From the NCBI GenBank assembly GCA_963971285.1, contig OZ020253.1, positions 16,442,528 through 16,506,527 on the forward strand: DNA of 64,000 nucleotides. Direction: 5' to 3'. The notes under the pieces were generated by a model. That model did no database searches, was not told where the DNA came from, and worked only from the letters and a program-made list of their open reading frames with translations. The stretch is from Astropecten irregularis. Its lineage: Eukaryota > Echinodermata > Asteroidea > Paxillosida > Astropectinidae. The translations under genes and the position numbers were made by a program. Positions 4,401 through 59,800 of this stretch are shown here, piece after piece. Numbering within the stretch: the first letter of the stretch is position 1; every line of letters starts with the position of its first letter.

Positions 4401-7400
4401 AAGGTATCAAGGCAAATATGAATCGTCATCTATGTTTCAGCCTAAAACTTTTCAAAAAAATCTTAGACAGTGAATTTTGAATGTACTATCAAACTTTATT
4501 TTTTTGTCAAAGAAATGTAGATTGATGTGAAAAATATCAAGGAAGATACAGTTATAGCCATCTGTGAAATGTTCAATCCCATACGGTGCCCACATTTTTA
4601 GAAAACAGTGAAAACGTTCTCAGAATTTTTTAAAAATCTCTTCACTTTTATTTTTTATCTTTAATAGATCAAAATTGTCTTTGGTTATTGGTTTTTAACC
4701 CTTTCCAGATAAAATATAGCGTTTGAGGCTGAATTTTTTTTTACGGTATGCTTCTACCAACAGCATCTTGTTTTTTTTTTCCTTGCAGAAAGCGGAGAGG
4801 TTTTTCCTGCGGTATTACAAACGGAAGTTGACACGGACGGAAAAGTTAGAGTTTTTGAACTTGTGGTACATTATGATCATCATTAGCGACCTCATGACCA
4901 TATCTGGGTCAATCTTCAAGGTTCTTCTGGAGTTTAAGGTCAGCTTAGTCTGTTTACTTTACAGTTTAGTCTGGTTCCCTGCCCAAAAATTTCCTGACGA
5001 CTCTTATTAAAAAATCTTAGGTCTGGTATCGGCTACGGTTAAAATAGACCATGACACAACTGTCATGCCTGTGCAGGCGCAGAAGCTGGCTAGTTTCCAT
5101 ATTAGCATTCATTTTTATATTTTTGTAAGCACATGCAATTTTACCCAGGCAAAGTAAGAGTTCAAAGACTAGGAAAACTATACAACAAACTCCTCAAAAG
5201 TGCATACAGGAAGAGTGCTCTGTTGTATGTGGACAATAATTATGCTCTATTTTGGCTAACTGTAGCATGAGATCAAACATATTTACATGATGTGACTTTT
5301 TCTGTGTATGACCTCACGTAACCTGTCGGAAATAGCCGACAATCAACTTGACTATCCGAAGTTGGACGAAAATGAGTTCATAATGTTTCAGATTTTTCCG
5401 TAAAGAAACAAAATTTGGCTTTTTTTGGTCACGTGCCAATCCAGTACCTCAAGTCGATACGGGACCCTAGAATTGACAGACAATAGTCGGTGATTCTTGG
5501 TCTGGGAACCAGACTATTAGTCCGTGTCTGTATCTGAGTGAAATGTTGATTGTTCATTTTTGTCTGTGACCTTTTGAGTTGTGTTATTAATAGCAAATTT
5601 TTTTTTATTGTTCATGAATATCTCAGGTGACTGCAGATTTTGACATGTGTAGCTTGTTGCTAGGGACGGGATGCTTCCTGGTCTGGCTGGGTATCCTGAG
5701 ATATCTTGGATTCTTCCCCAAGTACAATGTGAGTATCAATCAGTGCCGTATAAATCTAGGGGGTGGGGGATGCGTCCGAACGGGTGATACTTCGACTAGG
5801 TTATGGGTCAAATATTTGACCTTTTGAATCGCAGGTTTTTCCCTAGTCTTCTTGGGAGCTGGGTTGGTCTTATCAAGGAATGCCATCAGTATCCAGTGAA
5901 TAAGACGTATAACAGGGATGAGATTTCTCAGATTAAAATCTGATTTCAGATTTGTTTGTTTTAATAGGTTTTAGATTTTTTTTCCCTTACATGCTGTGGA
6001 GAAAAAGAATAAGAGATTTTCAGATTTCAGACTTGTTATGCTCCCTGTCAGCTGTTTGCAGACACTTTTTATCATTGGTCAATCTCATCCCTGGTATAAT
6101 GATGTTAAAGTGTATTGATTATTATCTTAGTGTGATATATGGGCTTTGCAAATTCAAATGATTCGTATTCATATGTCATTTCTCTTCTCATTTCCTTAAA
6201 ATGTGACCATATTAGGCTGCATATTTAGTTGATATCATTTTGTTACTTGTCACCAAATATATCATGAATTCACGTTACCACATTCTTATTTATATTTCAG
6301 ATACCTATCATCACCTTGAAGAATGCCATGCCTAATTGCATGCGATTCATCGTGTGTGGTCTTATCCTGTATATGGCCTATGGGTTTTGTGGCTGGATAG
6401 TCCTTGGTCCGTACCACCACAAGGTAAGAACTTCAGAATTTAAGAAATGTAAGAGAGGAAGATTTGCGGAGACATAAACTCTTTTCTCCAAGTGCGGTTC
6501 TGAAAAGAACCTGTGAGAAGTTGTCTTGACGTTTTGACCAGTGTACTCTGGCTTTCCTCAGGAGAGAGTGTGGGTGTCTCCGCAAACTTATTTGCTTGTG
6601 ATCATAGAGATACATACTAATAAACTAGAGGGTGGATGCACAATACTCCCCTGTACTGTGGCGCTGTGATCGCATGGGCCCGTGTCGCCATTACTATTAT
6701 GGGCACGAATTACGTATACGCATGCGTACCAGGGAATGCTGTGCTGACGGAGCACTTGCGTAAACTACATTACAAAGGCCTACGCCGTACGTTCACAGCA
6801 AAGATAGTAAAGCGCCGGCGCAGTGCCCATTTCAGTAATGGCGGATCGATCCCCATGTTGTCACAGAAATTTCGCCGAGCCCGCCCTCTAGTTTATTATT
6901 GTGTATCTCTATGGTTCATATTGATCTGTGCTGGATTAGACAATGAGTGCTGTTCTGTGACCTTTACCGATCATGTATTATACTTGTGATTAAATCCATT
7001 CGTGTGACAGGATTTTCACCACTTGCTCTAGATACTTATGAAGTATTTCTTTCTGTTTTTTCGTCTCTAGTTTCGCAGTTTGAACGTGGCCATCGAGTGC
7101 ATGTACAGTCTTATCAATGGAGATGACATGTTTGCAACATTTGATGAGATGTCGGATAAGAGCACAGTGGTTTGGATCTACAGTCGTGTCTACTTGTACT
7201 CCTTCATAAGTCTCTTTATCTACGTCATTCTCAGCTTGTTCATTGCGTTGATCATGGACACCTACGAAACTGTCAAGGTAAATACAGGCCATTATTCCTC
7301 AATAATTTTTCTTCGGCTAGATGGAAGATGTGTTTTTTGTCATTTTTGTCACTAGTCTTAAAAATAATGCCAATCTGTCTAGTATAAAAGATAATCAACA

Positions 7401-27590: not shown

Positions 27591-30500
27591 CTGTCATGAA
27601 ACACAAACATGTTTTGTTAGCATCGCAAACAGTGAGCATGGGTTTTTCTTTTACTTAAAAAATCAAACAGGACAGATTTTGGTCTCATGGCCTCGAGAGG
27701 CATAAATTTCACGGGAAATTTACTGCACACTTGAGGTAAGTGCTGAGCAAAATGGTCGCGAGAGATAGCTCTCGTGTGCGGCGGCCTTAAAGTTAATATC
27801 ATACTTTGGTTTTTGTCAAAGAAATACAGATTCATGGTCGAAAATATCAAGGAGGATATAATACAATAACAGTCATCTGTGAAAATTTCAGTCCCATACG
27901 GTACCCACTTTTTGAGAAAACAGTGGAAAACGGCCACAGTATTTCTTAAGTCTTTTCTGTTTCATTTTTTATCTTTAAAAGATCAAAATAAAATATTCTG
28001 AGGATAAATACAGCATTTCAGGCAGAAAAGTGCCAACGGTATGTTTCTATTATCACCATCTTTATAAGTTATAAGTTATAGGTAAATCTGTGAAGATTTC
28101 TGTTTTGGTATGTTACCAAAGTATGATAGCCTAGTACCTTTAAGGGTGTCCTACCAGGCTGTATTTAAGGAATTTTAGAGAATTGAAAAAACCTTTCAAT
28201 GGGTACGAAATGGATGACAGTTATTCATATTAATGGAAACATATACATGTATAAACCAATGCCCATTTGTTCGTAAGATACTGACCAAAAGCTCCTTTGG
28301 AAGGTGGTGTAGTTCTGCGTGGTCTGCCAGTTGGTGGTGGTTTGTTGCAGTCTGTACTGTTGGCACCCGTGAAATTGATCTGGGCAGACAAAACGCCAGT
28401 CCAGTACAACTCCTTGGGCCCCTTAACAATGGTTGCCCTATTGGGAGAATGGTAACGATGATCATTTTAAAATAGATAAGATTTACAAAACGTCTGCAAA
28501 GAAGGTTTAGTTTTGCCTACAGTGATTAAAGCGCTATATTAGGCCTAAAGGCTATACGCCGTGCTACTGCAGTACCGAACGTTTTACATTTTCGTGTTTG
28601 GTACGGCAATAGCATGGCGTTTAGCCCGAATTTGGCTCGGCAAGCTCTTTGGCTCGACAGGGTCTGTCGCACTAACGGTATTCGGTAGGGCTCGGCGTTT
28701 AGCGCAACTGTGCCTCGCTGCTGCTGCGCCATTGCTGCACTCCTTGATTTCAGTTCGGCACGGCAGTAGCACGGCGTATAGTCTTGGTCTAAGTTATGAT
28801 AATTTCGAGAACGTCTTCGTTGTTGGGGCGTCTCGGTGCATGTTGGGGAAGTGCATGTATTTATTATGGAAGCTTGGTGGCAGTAAACATTTTACAAAAT
28901 TACAATGACACACGGTAGCAAGCATCATGTGGTTTCTTTAAAGTTACTGTATAATACATGATTGGTTAAGGTCACAGGTCACCACTCACAGTATGTCTGA
29001 TGATCTGACCCAGCATGTACATGAAATGATAAACCTATGGAAATATGAGCTCAATCGGACACATGAGTCACGAGAAAATAATGAAAAACCAACTCAGTTT
29101 TTCTTTTGAAACACAAAGAAATAGTTTTGATCTTAAAATGTTTTCGGTCTTTGTTTTACTATAGTTTCTGGATAAATACACTATTTCAGGCTGAAATATT
29201 TAAACGGTATGTTTCTACCAGCACCATCTTCATACCCTGAAAGTTGTACGTAAATATGTGAGCATTTCTGTTTGGGTATAGGCCTATATGTTACCAATTC
29301 ATATATTAAACATTATTATTTTGTTTGTACGTACATGAAAGCGATGGGTCCTTCGTCGCATGGGGGCGCTCCCCAGGTTACTGTAGCAGCCGTGGCGTCT
29401 AACTCGTGGGACTGTGCCCATGCGTCCTGTGGGAAAAATACGTACAAAAGTTAGGTTACAATCATTGGCAGGACATGCATGGATGTAAATTTCTTAATTG
29501 TTATTTTGTTTTGAAGAAATAACTCAACAGGGCAGATACCCGTATGGCGTCAGAACAACCAGTGCTATTCAGATCTCATATTAACCCTTGAAAAGGACAA
29601 GTTTAGTGCTGCAACAAAAGGTCGCAAGAAGGCCCAACCGTTTAGGCCTACGTTATTTCAACAGAGAACAAAGCTTCAGAGAACAGAGCTTTAACTTCAA
29701 CGAAATACCACAGCCATTGAAAATTGAACAAAGAAAAATTCCCTGGAGGGGGATTCGAACCAACGACCTCCTGAACAAGGTACATGCGCTCTACCAACTG
29801 AGCCATCCAGCCCTACGTAGGCGGTGTCCTATGATACTTATAGCCAATCATCAAATAATCACATGGGAAACCGACTGATTTTAAAGTCATTGAAAAGTGA
29901 AGAAAGAAACATTTACTGGAGCGGGATTCGAACCGGCTGGATAGCTCAGTTGGTAGAGCGCCTGTACGGTATTCAGGAGGTCGTCGGTTCGAATCCCACT
30001 ACAGTAACATGTTTCTTTGTTCACAGAGCCAACAGCTTAATGGGTGAGAGACGAAGTAAAGGTTTGGAAAAGGCTCCTGTTGAGTCAAAGCTTGGGACTT
30101 ACTTCTCTACCGCCATTTGGGTCCCCTAAACGACTGAAGGGATTGGGCCACATGACGAAGCCGAAAGAAAGGCTTCAGCTTCACCATGTATCTCAAGCCC
30201 TTCATTTCATTTAGGACACAAAATGGCAGTAGCAAAATAAATCACACGCCCACTGATCTATACAAACTGGATAGGTCGCGGGTGCAGTGATTAGACGGCG
30301 AGCCGTGAAGTCACCAGCGGCCATGTAAGGATATTCAGCACAATACTCATTGCACTGCATGACTGCTTAGCAAGCAGTGCAGCAATTCTCTGTGTACGCC
30401 GGCTGCCGCGCCTGCCAATATATTATTGAATATCCCAAAATGGCTGCACGGATGCTTCACCTGCAGAGCTGCGCGACCTATCCAGTTTGTATAGATCAGT

Positions 30501-33500
30501 GCACACGCCTAGCCTCAACGCAAAATCCCTATAATGACAGGGAAAGTACCGGGTCGAATGTTGTTTTTTGGGATTGCAGAGTTTCCTATCTTCCTAACTT
30601 ACATCAGGTTTACTGCAGTTGAGTAACTTGGTGTTTTCTGGCGGATTGGAGAATCTACCAATGGCCTCGTTCCCGTTTTGGCCAGTTCCCCTACGGCGAG
30701 CCTGCATGAAAACACCCTCGATCTCAGAGGTTCCGTCGGAGGCTTCAACAGTCACTGTACAACAATAAAAATGTTCAATGATAAAAATTGTCGTTGTAAG
30801 TGCTGGTGTCCTTATAAATAGCTGTAATTTCAATGGAATCACGCTATTAGAATAATAACACCGTAGATGGTACAAACTGAGTACTAATAAGCCCTGACTG
30901 ACTTGAATATGCAAACGATTTGATTGAAATATGAAAGAAATACAGACTACTTAAAGGGTGGCTGCAGTGTTGTTTTTTTTCAGTCAGGTTATTTTATTGC
31001 CTTCATACAGAGAATATACTGAAAAATAATGAACGGCAAGTCTTATTTTGGTTTCAAACCAGCATTTGGTTTTCCTTTGAATGGCTTTGTAAAACGGGGG
31101 ATTTTCACGCATACTCATGTAGGGAACCAACAGCAAAAATATAATAAAAAAACATAAAAAGTGAAGAGGCAAACTTGACCTATGGTTTGGTAAAAAAAAT
31201 TACACCACCAGTTGAGTGAAAGGAACACTTTTGGCAAAATAAAACTCATTGAGGAGGAAAAAGTCTGTCAGAAAGCCTTTAAAGGGATTGCATACGTTTG
31301 GTAATTTGAGCCTACTGTTTCTTTCAAACCAATATAATTGTATATATATACCATAAAACTAACCTGTGCAAGTTTCAATTCAAAAGGTGGTAGCGTTTTT
31401 GAGATTTTGGCGACAAACTAGAGCGGTTATTTCACTCCAGAGAACAATTAGTCAATAGCTGAGAAGCGTTACGGCCATAACGCTTCTCAGATTCATTATT
31501 TTTGGAGATAAAAAGTGACATATTTTTCCATAACCGCGGTACTTCGAATTGAACGTTTCTCAATATGCATTATACTATCCAAAGCAGCTGTACTTCTCAC
31601 CAAGTAAGTTTTTATTGCCATAAATTTTCAGAGTCATTACCAAACGTATGCAATGCCTTTAAAACAACCGCAACTTTTTGTGCACAAATCAATTGGGTTA
31701 CTGCTCTCAGTTCCCCAGATGACATCACAGTTTTGCTCATAAATATGGAAATGCTAATTAGCATACAAACAAAAAATGTTTTTAACCCTGAATCAGTGTG
31801 AGGAAGTGGTTAAAATCACAGTCCCATGTACAGTTTTTTTTATTGACACATGTTCAAGCCATAATATTTCCATTGCAGAGACCCTTTAAAGATCGGGATA
31901 ATCATAAAGTAGTGGCGAGATTGCATACAATTTAACAATCATGAACAATAGTCGCGGGAAAGCCCTGTCATTCTTGGTTGTTTCTCACGTTTTGTAGTTA
32001 AGTTTAAAGGTTACCTGAAATCAAAACTCTTATGAAGTTAAATACATTTGTATTGTCATAAAACTCAACCTGTCTACCATTGTTTGTGCTAAAAAAAAGT
32101 TCGTAAAAAGGAGGTACTTTAGACTCATAATTTAGCACCCCACTTTTCACGATGAAAAACCTTGCTATACGTCACGCGTCACCGGCAGAACGCCACACAA
32201 TTTTCTATACAAGTCGCAAACTTGCCGACCCCGTTCAAATCGAAGAGCAAAATCTCACATACTATGTGCGTAAGCCAGGCGCGGTTCTTTTTTCAGTTAT
32301 TAAGCGCCAATGACATATGTGGGCCCCTAATAAGACATAGCAGAAGCGAGTGTTAGAAGAACCCAAAATATTGGGTCTTCTAGCCCCCCCCCCCCCCAAA
32401 AAAAAAATAATGGCTCTTCTAGCCCCCCAAAAATGTTGACTCTAGAACCGCGCCCTGCGTGAGCCAGCTGCTACTGTGATATAACCATAGAGTTATATTA
32501 GAAAACTAGAGGGCGCACCTCTGATTTGTCGCGTCACGAATTGAAGAATTGGCCGCCATTTTCTAAGTGGGCAAAAATGGGCATTCATGGGGTTATGTTT
32601 ACGTTTCGCGTTTGGCTGTGACGTGTGTTTGCATTATTGATATGCCCAAAAATTGCGCAGCCTTTGACTGCAGGAATCGGAGTAATAAGACCAACAACGT
32701 TTTATTTCATAAGTGAGTAGTACTGCTTAGTCTAACCTAAATATCATTAAATTTAGTCGATTTTTCATGGAGTAAGAAGGGGTTAACGTTACTTTAATAC
32801 AGTATTAAGTTAGGCCTATAAAAAGGCTATAGGAATTTGTGCTGCTATATTTTGTATGTTATTACTTAGTCGACTCTGGATCTGGATTTGGATCTGGATC
32901 TAGGTCTGGATGTTTACTTCGGCAAAGCTGGTTCCCGCATCATGTCAGAGGTTGAAATCATCCAGGTAACTTCAGGAAATGATCAAATAATGAAAGAAAC
33001 AGGTCAGATCATCCTTGAAAAGTTGCCACCAGCACCTTCCTCATAGTGTTGCCACTTTATGGACTACCGTATTTCATTCGTTGTAACTAATTCTTTTTTA
33101 AACTAACTTCTTTTTACAAATTTATTTTTACTAATTCCAGATGCAAAATTAAAGATAAGATACAAGATCCAAGTTTCAAGATCCAAGTTTCAAGATCCAA
33201 GTTTCAAGATCCAAGTTTCAAGATCCAAGTTTCAAGATCCAAGTTTCAAGATCCAAGTTTCAAGATCCAAGATCGACGTTTCAAGATGGAAGATTCTTCA
33301 GGGTTACCACCACCAACAAAATGGCCCTTTTCAGGACCACTAAATCATCCCAAAAGAGATTTATATTCAAGTCTGTTGATTACTGCCAAAAGATGAAATC
33401 CATTTTCTTTTTTTCAATTTCATTTTTTAGCACTCTCCTTCAAGAATACAGGTCCAGATTTCAGGAATGGCGACATGACTCAAGATTCATGATGCAAGAT

Positions 33501-36500
33501 GTCACTCAGATGCAAGATTTAAAGAAATAACTACTAACTAGATTTTACAAAAAATGTATTGTCATTGAAAAGTGAACAAAGAAAAATTGACTGGAGCGGG
33601 ATTCAAACCGGTGACCTCCTGAATACCATACAGGCGCTCTACCAACTGAGCCTTCCAGCCCTACGTTGATGGTGTCTCTAATTATCTCTTGTTCATCTCT
33701 TGTAGTCTATTATCTTTGTTCATTTGGCAGTGAGAAGGCATGAGAACGAACTTTACCACGAATATTATGAGTGCGAGTACCTGAGCACTTTTCCATGAGT
33801 GCGAGTATGAGTACGAAAACAGGAATTGACAAAGTTCATCAATGTAAACACATAGGCCTAGTGAATCCTTGTACTGGTGAGCTAAAACAATTACCGGTAC
33901 ATAATTATAAAGTGTCTGTATTCATGGACATAGAGCTATGTACATGTAAACATTGCTGAGATAACTTATGTACATTTTAGCTTGTCAAAAAAGTTTGTTC
34001 TTTCCCAGTGTGTTGAACTTTCATATACTGTTTCGACTTGTTAAATTAATTAACTGTGAAGAGCAAGTAATACTGTAAATAATTAGCTTTTTTCGCAGTT
34101 CAGATAAAGGTGCACTTGCTTTTTGGCGAAGTGCTGCGAAGCAGTGCGAGTTAATATACCGACTTCCGTCTGTCCGTCCGTACGCCATTTTGGCCACTCC
34201 AGAAGCATATTAGTTTGTCACGATTTATTTATTTAAATGTATATATAAAAACTGGTTTTTGTCAAAGAAATGCAGGTATTCGTGGGCAAAAATATCAAGA
34301 AAGAAACAGCAACAGTCATCTGTGAAAATTTCCAGTGTCATAAGGTGACTACTTTTGGAGAAAACAGTGGAAAAAATGCACACGGTATTTTAATATATTG
34401 ATTCAGAACTTGCAGAAAAGTCGAAAATCTCAAGTTTCCGTATTGTGTCAAGTTTGTGGCTGATTTAATTACTTGGATTTGTAGTTGTAATCGAGTACAA
34501 CAAATACCGGTTACGCCTCAGTTCCATCCCACATTTCTTTAAACTATACATGCACGTGACCCAAGATATAAAAACCCGATACCCTCCTTGTTTCAGATTA
34601 AGACTGACAATTAAAGAAACGATATTATCGACGCGCAATCGAGTTATGACCGGCCCTCGACTTGAAAAGTGGCATATCCTAAACTAAAGCTGAATTCGAG
34701 TGGAAAGGGGCAGTTTTAATGTAAAGGATTTTTTGTCAATTATTGCAATTTTTTTCCAATTGCACTAGTTTATTCCAAAAACAAACTATTGATGAGTAGT
34801 ATTCATGACGATAAGGCCGAAACTCCCAAAAAGATTGGAGAAAATCGACTTTTAGTAATGCGTTTTCTGAGCGCACTGTGTATAAGAATAAGCACATCCG
34901 GGCATTTTACACGGTTTTGCCCACTTAGAGACGCCATCTTTGATTCCCCATGTGTAGCCGAGAGCGCGTCACACAGGGCACGGTGAGTGCGCACTCTAGT
35001 TTTCTAATATAACTCTATGGATGTAACCTACTTGTTCTGCCGATGACGTCACACGCATTGTTGCGTGGTTCGGTTCCAAGGGGAATTTGGTTTTTGGGAG
35101 GCGGGACAAACATGTACTTATTTTTTTTAACTTTGGGGTCAAAATGAAGCACCGTACATAAAGGTTTAAATTTATATAGTCATTAATAATGCATAAAGCA
35201 AAAATCAGAAAACACTTTCATCCCTTTCAAAAATTTGATTACTGGGCCCTTTTCCAAACCTCGGCTCCGGCTCCGGCTCCGGCTCCGTCTCCATGAAGCC
35301 GCGTACCAAATGAAGGCTCCGGATCCGGCTTGATATTTGCGGCTTCATTCTGGCCAAAAAATGGAGCCAAACGAAGTCTGCTGGGGAGGTGGCTTCGTGG
35401 GGCTTCGTGACGTCACACTTTGAATCACTGAGGACAAAGTCACGTGACAGTAATAACAAGTGAACTTTGACACCTTTTCATTGTTTTTCGTCTGTATCTG
35501 CCGCGCAATTTAAATACCGAAACTAGTGAAATTATGGAAACTACATACAGTAGGATATTTTGGGGAAAGTTGCATCGAGTTTAGTGTAAATTGATAGACA
35601 AATCTCCATGGCAACGGTTTTCAGATTGTGCAATTTGGCTAATTAATTTGCATCATTATACATATACTTGTGACTTGTATGCCTTACACTAATCTTAACC
35701 CATGTTTTCAACACAAAATCAGCTAAATTAAAACAAACGTCACGCAACGGCGCGGCGCTCCTGAGCGCGTGACGCGTCACGCTCGAACCCCAGCGTTTTA
35801 GGCCGAAGCATCCCGAAGCCGCTCGAAGTCTGACTGTTCTAAACGTGGAGCCGCGACTTCGAACTGGAGCCGCGTGAAGCCGAAGCCTCGTGGAGCCGGA
35901 GCCGGAGCCTGAAGCCGGAGCCGAGGTTTGGAAAAGGGCCCAGGTATTCTTTAAGGTACTATCATACTTTGGTAGCATTCCGAAACAGAAATCTTCAAAA
36001 ATGTACCTATAATTTACAAGGTATAAAGATTGTGATGGTAGAAACATATCTTTAAAATTTATCTTCCTGAAATGTGCTGTTTTTATCCAGAAAAGAGTAA
36101 AAGAAAATTTGATCTTTTACGGATAAAAAATAATGGTGAAATGATTTTAAAGATACTATGGGCGTTTTCCCGCTGTTTTCCCCAAAAGGGGGCACCGTAT
36201 GGGACTGAAATGTTCACTAGACAGATGAATATTACTGTATCTTTCTTGAAATTGTTGCTCATGAAACAGCATTTCTTGCAATTTGACAAAAACCAAAAGT
36301 ATAATAATTAATATTATCACCTTTAAAGGAAACTTACCAAGGATAGTTTGACCAGCGCTGTACGTAGTAGTCCCCGTAGTGATCTTGTACGGTGCCTCAC
36401 CAGTGGCCGTGTTGTACCCATGACCTGTTGGGTACATGGATGTACAGACTTCAGGGGAGACCGGTGGGCCTCTCTCGTACGCCCAGGCTCCACTCACAGC

Positions 36501-36539
36501 CACCAAAAACACGGCAAACATCGCCAACTTAAGAGCCAT
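27514..36539 (-). CDS. Reeler-domain secreted/anchored protein, copy A, five exons
   Basis: A 224-residue protein of the reeler-domain (reelin N-terminal-like, insect 'defense protein') family. Exons on the minus strand: 36539-36338, 30754-30603, 29426-29335, 28437-28286, 27590-27514. All junctions are GT-AG and the sum is 225 codons. Seen: signal peptide ALKLAMFAVFLVAVSGAWA; the reeler core with PPVSPEVC.SMYP.GHG, then VTVEASDG and IEGVFMQARR, DAWAQSHELD, ATVTW.APP.C and ATIVKG...LYWTGVLSAQI; a Pro/Arg/Thr linker; and a hydrophobic end SPVSIILGVVGTLFLAGSPWY with no basic cytosolic residues. That end resembles a GPI-anchor signal more than a normal transmembrane anchor. Family members are linked to immune response and matrix roles; a specific function is not established here. 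Intron 1 (5.6 kb) holds a large transposon nest. Confidence 0.9.
27787..28142. mobile_element. MITE family 1 copy in reeler A intron 4
   Basis: A full-length copy between GCGGCC and GGTGTCCTACCAGGCTG. The B intron has GCGGCCTTCTGCCAGGCTG at this place with no element. Confidence 0.85.
28286..28437 (-). CDS. Reeler A exon 4: last reeler strand and Pro-rich linker
   Basis: ATIVKGPKELYWTGVLSAQI, then NFTGANSTDCNK and a PPPTGRPRRTTPPSKG linker. Two N-glycosylation sequons (NFT, NST). The linker is absent from copy B. Confidence 0.87.
28938..29310. mobile_element. MITE family 2 copy, inverted, next to reeler A exon 3
   Basis: Begins TTTAAAGTTACTGTATAATA and ends about 25 bases from exon 3 (29335). 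The equivalent place in reeler B lacks it. Confidence 0.8.
29335..29426 (-). CDS. Reeler A exon 3
   Basis: DAWAQSHELDATAATVTWGA, then PPCDEGPIAF. This matches the reeler strand that begins with an SH..... VTW motif. Acceptor CCACAG, donor GTACGT. It was too short to stand out and was found by homology with the second copy. Confidence 0.88.
29700..29830 (-). mobile_element. tRNA-derived SINE, minus strand
   Basis: GGATTCGAACC (B box inverse) and CTACCAACTGAGCCA (A box inverse). A further truncated minus head at 29893-29936 abuts the plus copy. Confidence 0.78.
29942..30025 (+). mobile_element. tRNA-derived SINE, plus strand
   Basis: A box TAGCTCAGTTGGTAGAGCG and B box GGTTCGAATCC sit in a tRNA-like head, followed by a tail ATGTTTCTTTGTTCAC shared with other copies. 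No proper acceptor stem or CCA end, so not a tRNA gene. Confidence 0.8.
30603..30754 (-). CDS. Reeler A exon 2
   Basis: VTVEASDGTSEIEGVFMQAR, then ARRRGTGQN and KLLNCSKPD. Acceptor TGTACAG, donor GTAAGT. The motif pattern (GF.MQAR, then a Cys) is typical of the reeler core. Confidence 0.92.
31278..31664. mobile_element. MITE with central palindrome
   Basis: Ends AAAGGGATTGCATACGTTTG and inverse. The centre CTGAGAAGCGTTA/TAACGCTTCTCAG at 31459-31490 is a perfect 13-base inverted repeat. Confidence 0.82.
32274..32455. mobile_element. Poly-G element copy, inverted
   Basis: ATAGCAGAAGCGAGTGTTAG, C runs, and CTCTAGAACCGCGCC at the right. Both ends carry AGAACCGCGCC or its inverse, so terminal inverted repeats of about 13 bases are possible. 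Confidence 0.7.
32642..32712 (+). pseudogene. THAP domain first exon (fragment) inside the P-like element
   Basis: ATG opens MPKNCAAFDCRNRSNKTNNV, then LFHK at a consensus donor GTGAGT (32713). The MP.xCAA..C.NR....... FH(K/R) pattern is the start of the C2CH THAP zinc finger, and the split falls at the FH(K/R)-FP position. The continuation exon with the remaining Cys and His was not found in the element. Confidence 0.75.
33167..33285. repeat. 14-bp tandem array
   Basis: Eight copies of ATCCAAGTTTCAAG, the last slightly changed, inside the P-like element. Confidence 0.92.
33553..33745 (-). mobile_element. tRNA-derived SINE inside the P-like element
   Basis: GTCATTGAAAAGTGAACAAA, GGATTCAAACC, GCGCTCTACCAACTGAGCC and a CTATTATCTTTGTTCATTTG tail. 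Confidence 0.8.
35243..35942. mobile_element. GGCTCC-type foldback MITE, 700 bp
   Basis: TGGGCCCTTTTCCAAACCTC with (GGCTCC)n, and the exact inverse at the right (GGAGCC runs, then GAGGTTTGGAAAAGGGCCCA). It splits a family 3 MITE in the transposon nest. Confidence 0.85.
35951..36327. mobile_element. MITE family 1 copy, inverted, next to reeler A exon 1
   Basis: Ends at 36327, 11 bases from the exon 1 donor edge (36338). Orientation is opposite to the neighbouring copies. Confidence 0.82.
36338..36539 (-). CDS. Reeler A exon 1: signal peptide and first reeler strand
   Basis: ATG at 36539-36537. The product MALKLAMFAVFLVAVSGAWA is a clear signal peptide, followed by PPVSPEVCTSMYPTGHG and the GEAPYKIT motif of reeler domains. 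A 5' UTR segment with its own acceptor (TTTTCAG) ends at 36560, so an upstream noncoding exon exists. Confidence 0.92.
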
Positions 36540-36595
36540 TGTTCTCTTGTTTCACTTGAACTGAAAATGGAGGGAAAACAATGTTTTAGTATGAC

Positions 36596-47965: not shown

Positions 47966-49236
47966 ATTTCTGGTTTGTGGTGGCCCGTGTAAAACACAAC
48001 CTATATAGGCAGAAAAGAATCGAGCGTTCTTTTTCAAATTTCAGAGAAATAGCAATGGATAAACTAGATCTTTTATCTGAATATCCAACTGGTTCACATC
48101 AATAATTCCGAATAGTAATACAGGTTTAACGATAATAATAACAATAGTTCACGCACCAATGATGAAAAGGGAAAAGTGTGAATAAAGTTCAACGCGCAGG
48201 AAAATAGACCATATTATTTTGGTATGTCATGGTAACTGCACACGGAATCACTGAAGGGGTTGTGGGGCGGCCATTGTAACACAACCACCTTTCTTGAGTT
48301 GAAGGCCGTTGTGTTATGTTATAATGTTATAGTTTGATCAATACTATAATAATGCAAATAAAAGATGAATCATTAAACACGGAATACATAATGACCATAA
48401 ATAGCAAGGTCCAAGTACCAGGTGCCATATTTGGAAAGGGTCGTCCATTTTTGTGTCATTTCAAATACCGAGCATTGTTGAAATGAAATACTCCAATGTG
48501 GCACGTGAAAATGTTTTTGAATCGACTGAGGAATCGAGCCATAATGGGGTTTTCATTTCTCAGGCAGCTCCAAATGAGAATGATGGATTGAACAATTATT
48601 GTTTACCATTGTGTAAAGCATGTGGCATAAATAGTAAGGTAATGGTAACCAGAATGGGAGTGACTTGGGAATTTTTCTCATGAAATCTTATCGAGACATT
48701 CATAGGATTATTATTATTATTTATTTATTTATTTCTGGAAATGACACTAAGGATTCCTCAAAAGTGCCCTATGCACTGTAGCTCGAAAGCCTGGTGAAAC
48801 CTTTTATGGAAAGATGATGAGAAAGAAGGTACAGTTTTAGAGGTGGGAGGAAAACCCCAGAGTAATATTCTGTGTAAAACCCACAGAATCAGGTAGGGAC
48901 TGAAAGCCCAATCCACTTGTGAACCGACCCGGACTCGAACCCGGTCCGTAAAGGTGAAAGGCGAGGAAAGAACCGCTGCGCCAATCTGACTCCCAAAGAA
49001 AGACAAAAAATACTTACTGTATAAAGAAAGATCGTGTTCAATACGTATGTTTCATTTGGTTAACGCCATACTATCCACATACTCTACATGCAAAGTCTGG
49101 ATCTTTATATATATATATTATATATTTTTTTAATGGAAAAAGGGGTTTCAACTCAATCAACTCTTTCGAAACGACTGCATTTAGATCCTTTGTACAAATG
49201 TTATAAAACTCACACAGAAGCCAATTTTAAACAGAC

Positions 49237-49269
49237 GTGCGCCCTCTGGTTTTTTAATATAACTCTATG
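49237..49269. mobile_element. Solitary end of a P-like element
   Basis: GTGCGCCCTCTGG, then TTTTTTAATATAACTCTATG, is one 33-base terminal repeat of the 32-kb family with a few changes. No partner end is seen nearby. Confidence 0.55.
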
Positions 49270-53800: not shown

Positions 53801-56800
53801 CACGTTGCTTCAGTTTCGGTTACTTATACCTTCATGTCGTAATCAATATCAGCTGATACCTTTTGGGAGGTTATCAAATGTAGTTTTCTCAATTATGGGA
53901 GTATTTCAGAGGGAAGTATTTTTACCCAAAATGTCATTTCTGGTACAAACTTTATAACGTAATAATTAATCTAATGACGGAGATATTTTAGCTTGCTGAC
54001 ACAGCCATACTCTTATACAAACCTGGAGCAATGTTTCATGTAATAAACTATCAAATCCCATCCGATCAAATAGTGCATAGAGCTCTATAAGACCTAAACC
54101 ACAGTGTACATCCCATGCTATTAACCATCCATCCCTTCTCTTGCAACCAAAAATGATAAATGGGTGCTTATGACTTTAATAGGCCTGCATAACGTTCCTT
54201 ATTTATAACACTCCAAGAAGTTTGCAGAATGAAAATGAGATTTGTCTGCAATATTTACGAGAGGGAGAATTACCCTTGTAGACATTATGTGAGTGAAATA
54301 CTTAAAGGTACTGTCATACTTAGGTAACATACCGAAACATATATCTTCACATATTTGCCTATAACTTACAACTTACAAGGTATAAAGATATAGCGATGGT
54401 AGAAAGATTGCGTTAAAACCTTTTTGTCTTAAATGCTGTATTTGTATTTGTCCAGAAAAGGTAAACCAATGACCAAAAACAATCTTGAACTTTTAAAAAT
54501 AAAAACAATCCGGGGAAACGATTTTGAAAATACAGAGGGCGTTTTTTTTTATTGTTTTCTAAAAAACAAATGGGCACCGTATGGGACTGACATTTTCACA
54601 GATGACTGTTACTGTATCTTCCTTGATATTTTAGCCCATGAATCTGCATTTCGTTGACAAAAACCAAAGTATGATACTGAAATACCTTTAATACATGAGG
54701 TTAATCATATTTATTTATCATTGGGGGAGGGGCTGGAAGCATCTTTCGACAGCAATTAGTTTCGATGATAGTTCATAAAATCGGGAATTCAAATGTCAGA
54801 TCACCCTTGAATGTAGAGTCTAAATTGTAGATTGCTATCTCTATTTTTCTTGCAGCAGTCCACGTGACATCGTGGTGTGTTACAGACAAAATATCGCACC
54901 TATAGGGCCCTATACTTGTCATCGCCTCGGCGCATACCGTTCGTCGGCTGTTGCTCACATATCCATTCGCCTCATTAACCATACAATAACTAACTTCACG
55001 GGACAAGCCTGTATGCTCATGCACTCACAGCCCGTACATTGCTAGCATTGCATTGAATGATTCCATGTATGAGAGCTCAGTGTTGAATAATTCCATGTAT
55101 GAGAGCTCAGTGTATTGTAAACTTGAACTTGGCCTTTCGTCTCGATCCCCATTGAGAGGAAGGACGCGCCTCAATTCAGCAATTTGACACTTTTATAGGT
55201 CTCCCGGGCTACGCCATCGTAAATCATTCAGGCTGATTGTTTGCTATAAAATGTCTGCATCGTATACCAGCGGAAAACGCTCATCTTATGGATATGGCAC
55301 GCTAAAGAGGAATTTATTCAACCCTATACGGAAACTGCAGCAACATAACAAAAAATCAACATTTTTGTAAAACATGTCAACATTTCCAAAACATGTAGTT
55401 GTCAACATTGTTACAATATGCTTCAACCCGCATGCCCATAACAATATATATCAACATTTTGTAAACAAAACATGTTAACATTTCAAAAAAATAGTTGTCA
55501 ACATTGTTACAATGTGCTCCAACCTGCATAAAAATAATTAATATCATATTTTGTAAACAATAATTGTTAGCATTTACGTAAAAATACCCGTCAACATTTC
55601 ACAACAATATTTGTCAACATTTTAATCATCAAAATAACCACAAGGGAAACTGAATTTAAAGTCATTGGAAAGTGAACAAAGAAAAACTTACTGGAGCGGG
55701 ATTCGAACCGGCGCCTGAATACCGTACAGGCGCTCTACCAACTGAGTGGTGTCCCTAATAGTCAACTATCTTTGTTCGTTTGGCAGTCAGAAGCCATGAA
55801 ACCACGCACACACCGCCATACCCCAAGGATCATTTCACCGATACGCGCAGCCATGCCGTCAACACTTAAAAATAATGAAACTACCGGTACCTACTTGTTG
55901 ACAAAATAATGTAATTATGCCAACCCATGCTGCGACAAAATTCATCTAAAAATACTCGTCAACATTTCTTCCAAAAAAGTGTGTCAACCCTGCTCAGCAA
56001 AACAATGACCAAGTCAAAAGCAGTAAACATCACAATCCCCATGAACATTCTTCTTGTCACCAATATTAACCCACAATTCAATTGTTTCGATGTTACAGCA
56101 GGCAGCAGCGGGTCATCGCTTCATTCATCATCTCCATTACCAGGTAAGTTGACCTAAGTAATGATGTTTCATTCTTGTTGTTCTAGTAAGCAGGAGAGAG
56201 TGCTTGTTAAATGCTTGCCTGGAATTTTGAGTATCATTTGTTTATTTTGAAACACATCAATCCCGGTCAAGTTCTTTTTGGCTCACCCTGCATAAAGCTC
56301 TTTTTCTGGCATCGATCTTCTGGCAAATAGAAGCGCCATATAATGCATATGGCAAAGATACGCCTGCATGCGGATAAATGACGTGTCTTATTTCGATTGT
56401 AAAACAAAAGTAGATATACCATGGCCGATGAATGTGATTGATGGGCGTCTAGTCCATGTACATGTATACCACACAGGATATTCATCTCTGTTGCACCTGC
56501 ATGCATGAAACACTTTGTCTTTTAAAGGAAAAACTGGATTCCATGGCCAATTTTGTTGCTTTACTTTCCCCAGATGGCACAGTACGTCTTAGAGACGGCT
56601 TCCAACCATACCAGGGCCGTGTGGAGATCTACTACTCTGGGCAATGGGGAACCATCTGCGATCCTGGTTGGGACACCAACGCAGCTACCGTGCTGTGCCG
56701 TCAGCTAGGTTACAGCGCCGTCAGGAAGGCACGGATCACCTTCGGTGCAGGATCAGGCCCCGTCTACCTGCAAGGCATCAAATGCGGGGGTTACGAGGAT

Positions 56801-59800
56801 AATCTCTTGGGGTGTTCCAACGATGATTTGATCGGTAGCGGCTCGTGCGATCACTCGCAGGATGTGGGTGTGATATGCGGCGATGGTTCGAAACAGGCCA
56901 CACCGGCACCCGTAGAGGCCAAGGGTATATTCAATTGATTCCTGTGTTATCACCCAGGGCTTAGGGGCGTAGATATCGAGGAGGTGGGAGTATGCACCCC
57001 CTCCTCCCCTTGCAGAATGTTAGCAATTATGCAATACATGCAACTTAAAAGAAATCTATAATAGCATAGAAATCAAAATATAACGAGTAACAGTAAGAAA
57101 TATGATAACATTTAGACTAATGTTTATAATTACAAATAGGGTATTAAGGAGACACGTTAGCGTCTGAAAGTGAACATTCGGGAGACATCGGAACTTAGGG
57201 AGACTTTTCGATGTCTCCCTAAGGTATCAGCTACCATATAAAGACATATTTTTACTGTACATATTTTAAGTCAGAGAATGCTCTCAATATGAACATTATG
57301 TCAATTTCAAGTTCATTGGTTTGGAGGATACGTAGAAATAGGTAAGCAAAGTTTGTGCACGGCCCTATAGGAAAGTCTTCCTAAGTACCCATCCTCGGTT
57401 ATTATTATTAATGATAACCAGGTTCTTCTTTACTATCACTTAATAACTAGATGGTGCTTTGCGCTTGGCTGATGGTACGGAGATACACAACGGTCGACTG
57501 GAAATCTTCTATAAAGGAGAATGGGGTACCGTGTGCAAGGATGCATCTGACAACATGACAGCTCACGTAGCCTGCCGGCAGCTGGGCTTCAGCACCGCCG
57601 ATCCACCCGATGCCGTGCCCCCAGGGGGTTTCACGGGCTCCACCCTAGGGCCCATCCTGCTGGATCATGTGGTCTGTGGAGGCACGGAGTCCAAGCTGGC
57701 CTATTGCTCTTATGGGAGATGGGGAGAGCACGATTGCTCGCATGATAATGATGTCATGCTCAGCTGTAAAACATACACTGAACCCGAAGGTATATACAGT
57801 GCATAACATTGATCTGACACCTTTATTTATCGTGAAAATGAATTGTACATGACATCATGGAATGATATGTATAGATATGTCAATCTGAGAATGGATCTTT
57901 TAATATCATGGGTGTCGATCCGGGGGGGGGGGGGGGGGATATATCCCCCCAAATTGTTGAGGTGGGGGGGGGGGGGGATGGCGTGTATTATCACCCCCCC
58001 CCCCCCCCCCCCCAATATTTTGAGGTTGAATGTCATTCAATTTTATTGTATAGAAATATTACATGACCCTTGTTGTTTTGTTAGTCTTCGCAATGAATTT
58101 ATAATGTTTAATTCTTCTGAATATCGCTTTTAAATGCTCTAAAATGCGACTTTTCGACTGTTTTTATTAAAACGTCCCTGGTTTGGGAGGGGGGTATCCC
58201 ACCTCCCACAGCCTCCACCGGCTCGGTCGCTTCGCTCCCTCGCATAGAACACCAAATTACCAATCATCCCCCCAATCATAAACAGAAATCGACACCAGTG
58301 ATCTTTATTAATTATCCTGGGGTCGATTTCACGAAGCCCTACGGTCGTTTGTAACTCCAGTTGGGATGGATAACCCATCGCAGGGGGCATATCCCACGTA
58401 GGGTTGCAATGCATTAAAAGTCCTACGATTGATAGTAAGTTACGATGAGTTTGGTGAAATCGACCCCAGTTTATAGACTGCTTCCTGGGTATGGGCCAAG
58501 GCTTAATGGCTTCAAGTAATTATACTATTTCAAGACTCTTTTATTCTTGATTCCTATAACTTTACAGAAGGGGCAATTCGTCTGGTGGCAGGAGACAGTG
58601 AAGAGAGTGGTCAAGTTGAGATCTACTACCAAGGTGTCTGGGGTACCGTCTGTGATGATGACTGGACCATTGAAGATGCTACGGTGGTGTGTCGGCAGCT
58701 GAACTACAAGCCAGCCAGGGCCAGCTACTCCTACTCTTACTTCCTAGACGAGGACTCCATCAACCCGGTCTTCATCGACAGCATCGAGTGTGATGGATAC
58801 GAGAAGCGTTTGGAGGACTGCACGCATACGTGGCGTACCGGAGCCCGTGGCCATGCCTTCGATGTCGGCGTCACGTGCGGTGCACCGGAGAAATGGAACC
58901 CTGTAGCCTACAAGGAAGGTATTGATTTCAGATGCTTGGAGCAGCAGCGATCCTAGCGACCTGTTCGATTCATACATATTTGGGTTCTTCTGATTATTGT
59001 AATTTGTAATAAAGATAATGATAATGTTAATTCTGAATTTATTCCGCGCACACCAAAGACACTCGTGGCGCACATCATCTCTGGTCACCAGGCCATAATT
59101 TACATTCATGAAACCATCTCAGGGAGTATACAGCCCCGTGCTTCCGTATTCAATGCACAGGGGCTAATCAAACCACAAAGCCATCTCTACCATGACAGGA
59201 ACCCATTTACACCTGGGTGAAAAGGAGCAATATTATGTGACAAAGCGTCTTACCTAAGGATGCAATCACCACTAGCCCATGGCTGGATTCGAACCTACAA
59301 TCTGTAGATTGACTACGAGATCTTGAGTTCGTCACGCCAGACCAATAGGCAGAACACTCCATTATATTTAATGTTTTTATGCAGTCCACACAGAATAGAA
59401 ACTCGTTCAAGATGGCAACTACCGAAAGAAGATACGGGGGATAGTACCATTTTCCTATCAAAAACGAGGAAGACCAAGGATAATAATTGGTGCACAAGTT
59501 ACACATGCCCTTCACGTATTGAATTTTATAATTATGTTACGTCTATAATATTGGGAAATTAGACTTAACTTTAGCCGTCATTCATTTGATTTTGGACTAC
59601 AGATGGAAGAGTACGACTGGACGGCGGTACCTACGTACACAACGGCCGCGTGCAAATCAAATACCAAGGTGAATGGGGCACAGTGTGCGATCAGGGATGG
59701 AACATCGAGGCAGCTAACGTAGTGTGTCGCCAGCTGGGCTACCCGTCAGCTGACAGCGCTCTACCGGGGGCATTCTTTGGCGAGGGGACTGGGGTGATCA

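Follow-up and report, generated by a model that had tools for sequence, protein, structure and literature searches.

The window analyzed here is a 64,000-nucleotide stretch (C17:16442528-16506527) of the 475.7-Mb genome assembly that was searched. Within it lies an element, designated family A, that is very probably a nonautonomous DNA transposon of the P superfamily. Three minus-strand open frames around the element have counterparts in a paralogous gene that lies between 46216 and 44359, and the peptide joined from these frames contains a Reeler domain (5.7e-21). Because the element falls between the first two matching frames, the sequence supports its location in an intron of the Reeler gene, antisense to that gene, in agreement with the intronic position that the first-pass annotation had proposed. 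A duplicated segment of the host region at 9740-9370 (minus strand) is 71-82% alike to 32050-35253, and the element is absent from this other copy.

The first-pass annotation had assigned the element to the P superfamily from four marks, all of which were recovered: 33-bp terminal inverted repeats that start with CATAG and differ at one base, an 8-bp target duplication, inverted subterminal motifs, and a THAP-type exon that ends at a consensus splice donor (Table 1). A 28-base portion of the end had no match in 100 shuffles of the window. The subterminal motif CTAAGTGGGCAAAA, which begins 78 and 92 bases inward of the two ends (counted from the coordinates), is weak evidence taken alone because shuffled sequence averaged 0.85 matches with up to two mismatches; what counts is its placement at both ends. 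Its core, AAGTGGGC, is present at both ends in six of eight miniatures of 231-257 bp. CTAAGTGGGC may resemble the THAP sites of flies and humans, a likeness that look-ups did not verify.

Table 1. Features of the family-A element, its host gene, and related sequences in the window
Feature	Position	Strand	Remarks
Miniature of sister family B, 311 bp	6603-6913		Both ends, without the interior
Next matching frames of the Reeler gene	30597-30950 and 29319-29450	-	
Left target duplication, 8 bp	32478-32485		GATATAAC
Transposon of family A	32486-35019		2,534 bp
Left terminal inverted repeat, 33 bp	32486-32518	+	CATAGAGTTATATTAGAAAACTAGAGGGCGCAC; starts CATAG
Left subterminal motif	32563-32576	+	CTAAGTGGGCAAAA, exact; candidate THAP-finger binding site
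First THAP exon, 71 nt	32642-32712	+	MPKNCAAFDCRNRSNKTNNVLFH(K); starts at ATG 32642
Splice donor	32713-32718	+	GTGAGT
Minisatellite, 14 bp	33163-33271		Inside element
tRNA-derived repeat	33553-33743	-	Inside element; tRNA-like part 33588-33660
Segment of 682 bp	33708-34389	+	In place of transposase-bearing segment (L020 1510-2300)
Abundant dispersed repeat	34253-34392		Inside element; 16 further matches in window
Right subterminal motif	34915-34928	-	CTAAGTGGGCAAAA, exact (14/14)
Right terminal inverted repeat	34987-35019	-	One mismatch vs left (32/33 bases equal)
Right target duplication	35020-35027		GATGTAAC
Open frame with first coding part of host Reeler gene	36159-36551	-	
Lone family-A left end	49229-49269	-	Partner not found

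Genome searches, in which only the best candidates were scored, returned many further copies of family A. The 28-base end, with up to three mismatches, had 132 matches (67 forward and 65 reverse), and a reversed-pattern control had none in the genome. A search with the whole element, in which the best 40 of 5,944 first-look candidates were scored, gave a list of 123 matches, with identities of 92-98% among the longer ones. Of the 132 end matches, 100 were listed, and pairing of 77 left and 79 right ends gave at least 54 pairs. By length, eight of these measure 231-257 bp, one measures 705 bp, 35 fall at 2.4-2.9 kb, six at 3.1-3.6 kb, and four are longer still. An 18.7-kb pair probably represents two elements, and a single right end served in two pairs. 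The mean divergence of 17 long copies, including the window copy, is 2.2% (range, 0.35-3.4%), which suggests that family A spread recently. A scan of viral contigs for family-A ends gave no matches.

Target duplications were evaluated in 33 two-ended copies picked from the lists, out of the 54 listed pairs. They comprise the window copy, 16 of L029-L048, L020, L049, nine short copies, and five more pairs; L033, L044, L047, and L048 were omitted because they have no second good end. The 8-bp duplication is perfect in 30 of the 33 copies, has one mismatch in two (the window copy and L036), and is absent from one (L060), and in none of the 33 does it reach 9 bp. Thus, the 8-bp duplication holds for 32 of 33 copies when one mismatch is allowed, and a consistent departure from 8 bp, which would have spoken against the first-pass assignment, did not occur.

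The link to a P transposase comes from another copy of the same family. L020 (C8:37628347-37631060), one of 23 P-type helix-turn-helix (HTH) matches in the genome, lies between family-A ends, is flanked on both sides by GGTTGATC, carries the THAP exon, and is 88% identical to the window copy over element positions 8-1230 and 94% over 1913-2543. Its 232-residue frame matches the Pfam domains RNaseH_N (1.7e-30; profile positions 1-109 of 137) and Tnp_P_element HTH (2.6e-19). A profile search between the ends, as recommended by the first-pass annotation, therefore yielded P-transposase domains, and an unrelated transposase between the same ends was not encountered. Because L020 joins a P-transposase exon to the ends, subterminal DNA, and THAP exon seen in the window copy, it is highly likely that the window copy arose from a longer P element by internal deletion. 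The dispersed tRNA-derived repeat of the window copy sits directly before the transposase exon in L020, and the abundant repeat falls within the 682-bp segment that replaces the transposase-bearing part. Neither repeat had been noted in the first-pass annotation.

Inspection of the L020 sequence indicates that this copy is truncated too. The GTP-binding part and RNaseH_C were not found in L020, where the frame ends. The likeness of its exon to that of sister family B, described below, stops at residue 187 of 201, and the more distant L009 group can be aligned as far as residue 199. No other full match to the exon was found in the genome; just its last part recurred, in three matches of 44 bases. 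Another family-A right end (C8:37628115-37628346, positions 1-232 of the L020 piece) adjoins L020, whose duplication overlaps the last base of this neighboring end. Searching with the two ends for longer elements met L020, L049, and others and no complete family-A copy. The 8.5-kb L049 (C17:6866786-6875329) was considered as an autonomous master and rejected, as it is the same element split by ~0.8 kb and ~5.1 kb of other sequence. The ~5.1-kb insert, at about 2810-7960 of L049, has long open frames that by eye resemble those of a DIRS-type retroelement.

The THAP exon of the window element comprises the first 24 codons of the finger, with just the first two cysteines of the C2CH set. A PDB search with these 24 residues matched THAP1 chains (E values of 0.0015 and 0.013) and THAP2 (0.036) and nothing else up to an E value of 10. 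A strict, author-made pattern for the THAP N terminus had one match in the window and none in 30 shuffles; a looser pattern had one window match versus a mean of 0.3 per shuffle. A Pfam search with the exon alone did not report THAP, and the commoner copy form of the exon gave THAP at an E value of 0.059, below the cut-off. The boundary at 71 nt is common to family A, the first exon of sister family B, and human THAP1 exon 1, which ends at c.71, as the naming of variant c.71+9C>A in intron 1 implies in the portion of the source consulted (PMC4049367).

With half of the C2CH residues missing, and with 9 of the 17 long copies no longer encoding the first zinc cysteine, the exon resembles a relic of the parent gene. 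Some truncated Drosophila P products repress transposition, and the THAP exon of deleted copies might likewise yield a truncated repressor, as could be argued from the retention of the start codon and donor in all 17 long copies. However, the plus-strand frames of the window copy and of L020 yielded no match to the second half of the finger (C..HF), just two C..FF matches apiece that were taken as chance, and the loss of the cysteine leaves no sign of selection at the protein level. We therefore consider a repressor very improbable.

Other P elements of the same genome provide the domains that family A lacks. When 20 of the 23 P-type HTH loci were compared with the L020 exon, the closest was family B (L015/L016 and L050-L053), 62% alike over 188 residues. 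The left ends of family B start CATAGAGATATATACTAATAGAACTAGAGGGCGGGC and read CATAGAG...ACTAGAGGGCG, 79% alike to those of family A over 33 bp, and family B also shares the 8-bp duplications and a 71-nt THAP exon 1. Family B differs from family A in its length of 7.9 kb, its open main frame, and its subterminal repeat CCGCCATTAC (identified by eye). One copy (C1:12049510-12057437) measures 7,928 bp with GTAATTCT at both sides, and a second, of ~7.9 kb, has GGCATTCC at both sides; identity between the two is 99.3% across 6.4 kb and 99.6% across the final 1.5 kb, and their main frames are open. With exons joined at splices of our choosing, the family-B THAP domain scored 3.4e-16. Its main frame encodes 741 residues, of which the first 701 contain HTH, RNaseH_N, GTP-binding, and RNaseH_C domains and match Drosophila P transposase 6p5a (6.2e-23). 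Of this core, the HTH and part of RNaseH_N are present in family A, in L020; the GTP-binding domain and RNaseH_C are present just in family B. By eye, the acidic residues of the family-B stretches LDAM, CDG, FDACHL, and LEMFF align with acidic positions in the fly transposase, and we take them to be catalytic.

The similarity of the two families raises the possibility that family A is mobilized in trans by family B rather than by an own master, now lost. The resemblance of the left ends would permit this, as would the two full-length family-B copies with both ends, open transposase frames, and duplications, together with the lack of a complete family-A copy. However, the transposases are just 62% alike over the shared exon, the subterminal DNA of the two families differs, and a now-absent family-A master accounts for the data equally well. 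In the parts of a study of Galileo elements drawn on here, the THAP domain of one subfamily bound the ends of a second weakly and those of a third not at all, a further point against exchange between families, and the same domain did bind some ends from other species (PMC3688188). Mobilization by family B is thus unlikely. A wider scenario, in which several P families were very recently active and family A is an orphan sustained by the transposase of a sister family 62% alike, is likewise unlikely.

The P superfamily transposes by GTP-dependent cut-and-paste with long 3' overhangs, and the related 1360 element makes duplications of 7 bp. For the deleted P element in the window, a P transposase made elsewhere would use its THAP finger to bind the subterminal AAGTGGGC motifs and its helix-turn-helix to bind the inner terminal repeats. 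It would then excise the element and insert it at a target of weakly palindromic sequence, where the 8-bp duplications would result. The source of that transposase is either lost, unassembled, or a sister family. The window element is probably a passenger, since it provides no transposase of its own and under a third of the finger is encoded in its THAP exon.

A palindromic target preference emerged when 32 insertion sites were stacked, with L060 excluded from the motif count. At position -3, T was present in 50 of the 64 half-sites (binomial P of 5e-15 versus 30.5% T); this position was chosen after the counts were seen, and the two half-sites of one insertion are not independent. The first duplicated base was G in 32 of 64 half-sites and the second was T in 34 of 64. 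Self-complementary pairs numbered 115 in the 32 sites versus 86.4 expected, a value not reached in any of 5,000 shuffles of the second half of each site. The palindrome reaches 3 bp past the duplication, as does the 14-bp palindromic target motif described for the fly P element in the text consulted (PMC3276498).

Several observations weigh against the assignment to the P superfamily or against parts of it. The palindromic target is not a mark of P alone and fails to separate P from hAT because hobo, a hAT element, is described in the same source as duplicating 8 bp of its target and as having a palindromic target motif of 14 bp with the core GTNCGNAC (PMC3276498). It could therefore be proposed that the element is a hAT transposon with a THAP-like exon as passenger. 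Yet L020, of the same family, encodes P-type RNase H and HTH domains, unless it is chimeric, and the 71-nt boundary of THAP exon 1 is shared with a sister P family whose ends read CATAGAG...ACTAGAGGGCG. The exon found between family-A ends is P-type; no hAT-profile search was made. A hAT origin is accordingly judged extremely improbable. Further adverse points concern the window copy itself: its flanking 8-mers, GATATAAC and GATGTAAC, differ at one base, and in the paralogous segment near 9740-9370 the empty site aligns at the right side only; the left flank at the window element holds another repeat. The listed family-A pairs enclosed a single one of the 23 P-type HTH matches and of the 87 RNaseH_N matches, in each case within L020, and none of 48 GTP-binding-domain matches. 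Two P fragments lie near but outside family-A pairs: C28:6385297, which belongs to a group of four copies, is 2.1 kb away, and C30:5385274 is 4.8 kb away. The genome searches did not find a working family-A transposase. The first-pass suggestion of autonomous members elsewhere in the genome was thus not borne out for family A, whereas the genome does contain sister P families whose transposase frames are open. A family-A master copy could hide among unlisted ends or in unassembled stretches. The left subterminal motif, as read from the sequence, is altered in L020, the miniatures have GAAAGTGGGC or GTAAGTG(G/A)GC at position 65-69 rather than 78, and no close left motif was found in the 705-bp copy; the role of the motif as a binding site is therefore a guess.

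A Kolobok origin was also considered and rejected. Kolobok elements duplicate TTAA, whereas the duplications of family A are 8 bp and varied in sequence, and the domains of L020 are P-type.

What is known of P elements comes, in our judgment, mostly from flies and then from mosquitoes and zebrafish, and the ends of fly P elements begin with CAT. The Drosophila melanogaster P element, as far as the consulted sections describe it, resembles the elements studied here in its inverted ends of ~31-33 bp, subterminal inverted motifs, 8-bp duplications, internally deleted copies, and a transposase of THAP, HTH, and RNase H/GTP-binding domains, found here in family A or its sister (PMC7776569). In contrast, the fly P group tends toward ANAGT/ACTNT targets rather than T at -3, the fly element measures 2.9 kb versus 7.9 kb for the sister elements, and no intact family-A master was found. 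Zebrafish Pdre2/THAP9 shares the CATA ends, subterminal repeats, 8-bp duplications, and coexistence of one full copy with internally deleted copies, but in the passages available its ends are 13 bp (CATACCTGTCAAC), unlike the 33-bp ends of family A, which differ after CATA (PMC10983969). Anopheles gambiae P elements and their miniatures (P-MITEs) have, in the part of the report consulted, ends of 27-31 bp, 8-bp duplications, and miniatures with P ends around an unrelated center (PMC1562414). They differ in host lineage and sequence, and the main multiplied form of family A is a 2.5-kb deletion copy that keeps the THAP exon.

The window element thus belongs to a known kind, the P elements. No paper describing it was found in a literature search of partial coverage, with Repbase outside it, and we do not claim that it is unpublished. 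This genome brings together open-frame sister copies, a defective family that has multiplied, miniatures, and data on target sites, and through it P-element target choice and end recognition become comparable across animals. A sea-cucumber genome preprint, in the portion consulted, counts 51 THAP genes, one class of which has transposase domains (PMC13228809). The present results suggest that, among the echinoderm genes classed as THAP transcription factors, some may encode transposases of P elements.

The first-pass annotation had placed the DNA in an invertebrate deuterostome, which mitochondrial codon use narrows to a likely echinoderm. Asparagine at two sites of COX1 (STNHKDIG and YNVIVTAHA) is kept across animals, and in the COX1 gene on contig C168 both are encoded by AAA, which fits the echinoderm mitochondrial code. 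We infer that C168 is the mitochondrion of the animal. Flatworms share the reading of AAA as asparagine, and the gene content was judged to argue against a flatworm. Amphioxus was also considered as the host; a GFP-family search gave no match, nor did its controls match anywhere, and the assignment relies on the codon use. COX1 had two more matches, on C25 with TGA codons and on C131 without. The latter match (C131:32162-33484) has a 552-residue frame and in its lack of TGA codons is unlike C168; it is perhaps on a bacterial contig of the assembly.

Additional P-derived sequences were observed. L009-L014 (six copies, 98.98-99.97% identical over 3.2 kb, with 809-residue frames) and L017-L019 (three copies, 99.5-99.7% identical, with 819-residue frames) look recent from these identities. 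In L054 and L055, pieces inspected for the ends of these two further sister groups, the common stretch begins at GTCCTGTCAG and continues to the end of the piece compared. The family-B miniature in the window is 91% identical over 92 bases at one family-B end, with a further match to the other, and its flanks, CTTGTGAT and GTTCATAT, form no clear target duplication. A 12-bp difference in subterminal spacing between the two ends of family B, counted by eye and similar to the 9 and 21 bp of the fly, was absent from family A and the miniatures and was not used. A 3.1-Mb region (C11:18,990,731-22,091,849), ~0.65% of the genome, holds 40 of the 87 P-type RNaseH_N matches. Because five of eight stretches from this region are 94.6-97.2% alike over 1.36-1.77 kb, by sequence comparison it is at least in part a duplicated array of P-derived sequence.

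Elsewhere in the window, the dispersed tRNA-derived repeat has a second tRNA-like match at 29935-30007 (plus strand); ARAGORN called no tRNA gene there or at 33588-33660. Frames at 56453-61038 (plus strand) read by eye like repeated SRCR domains.

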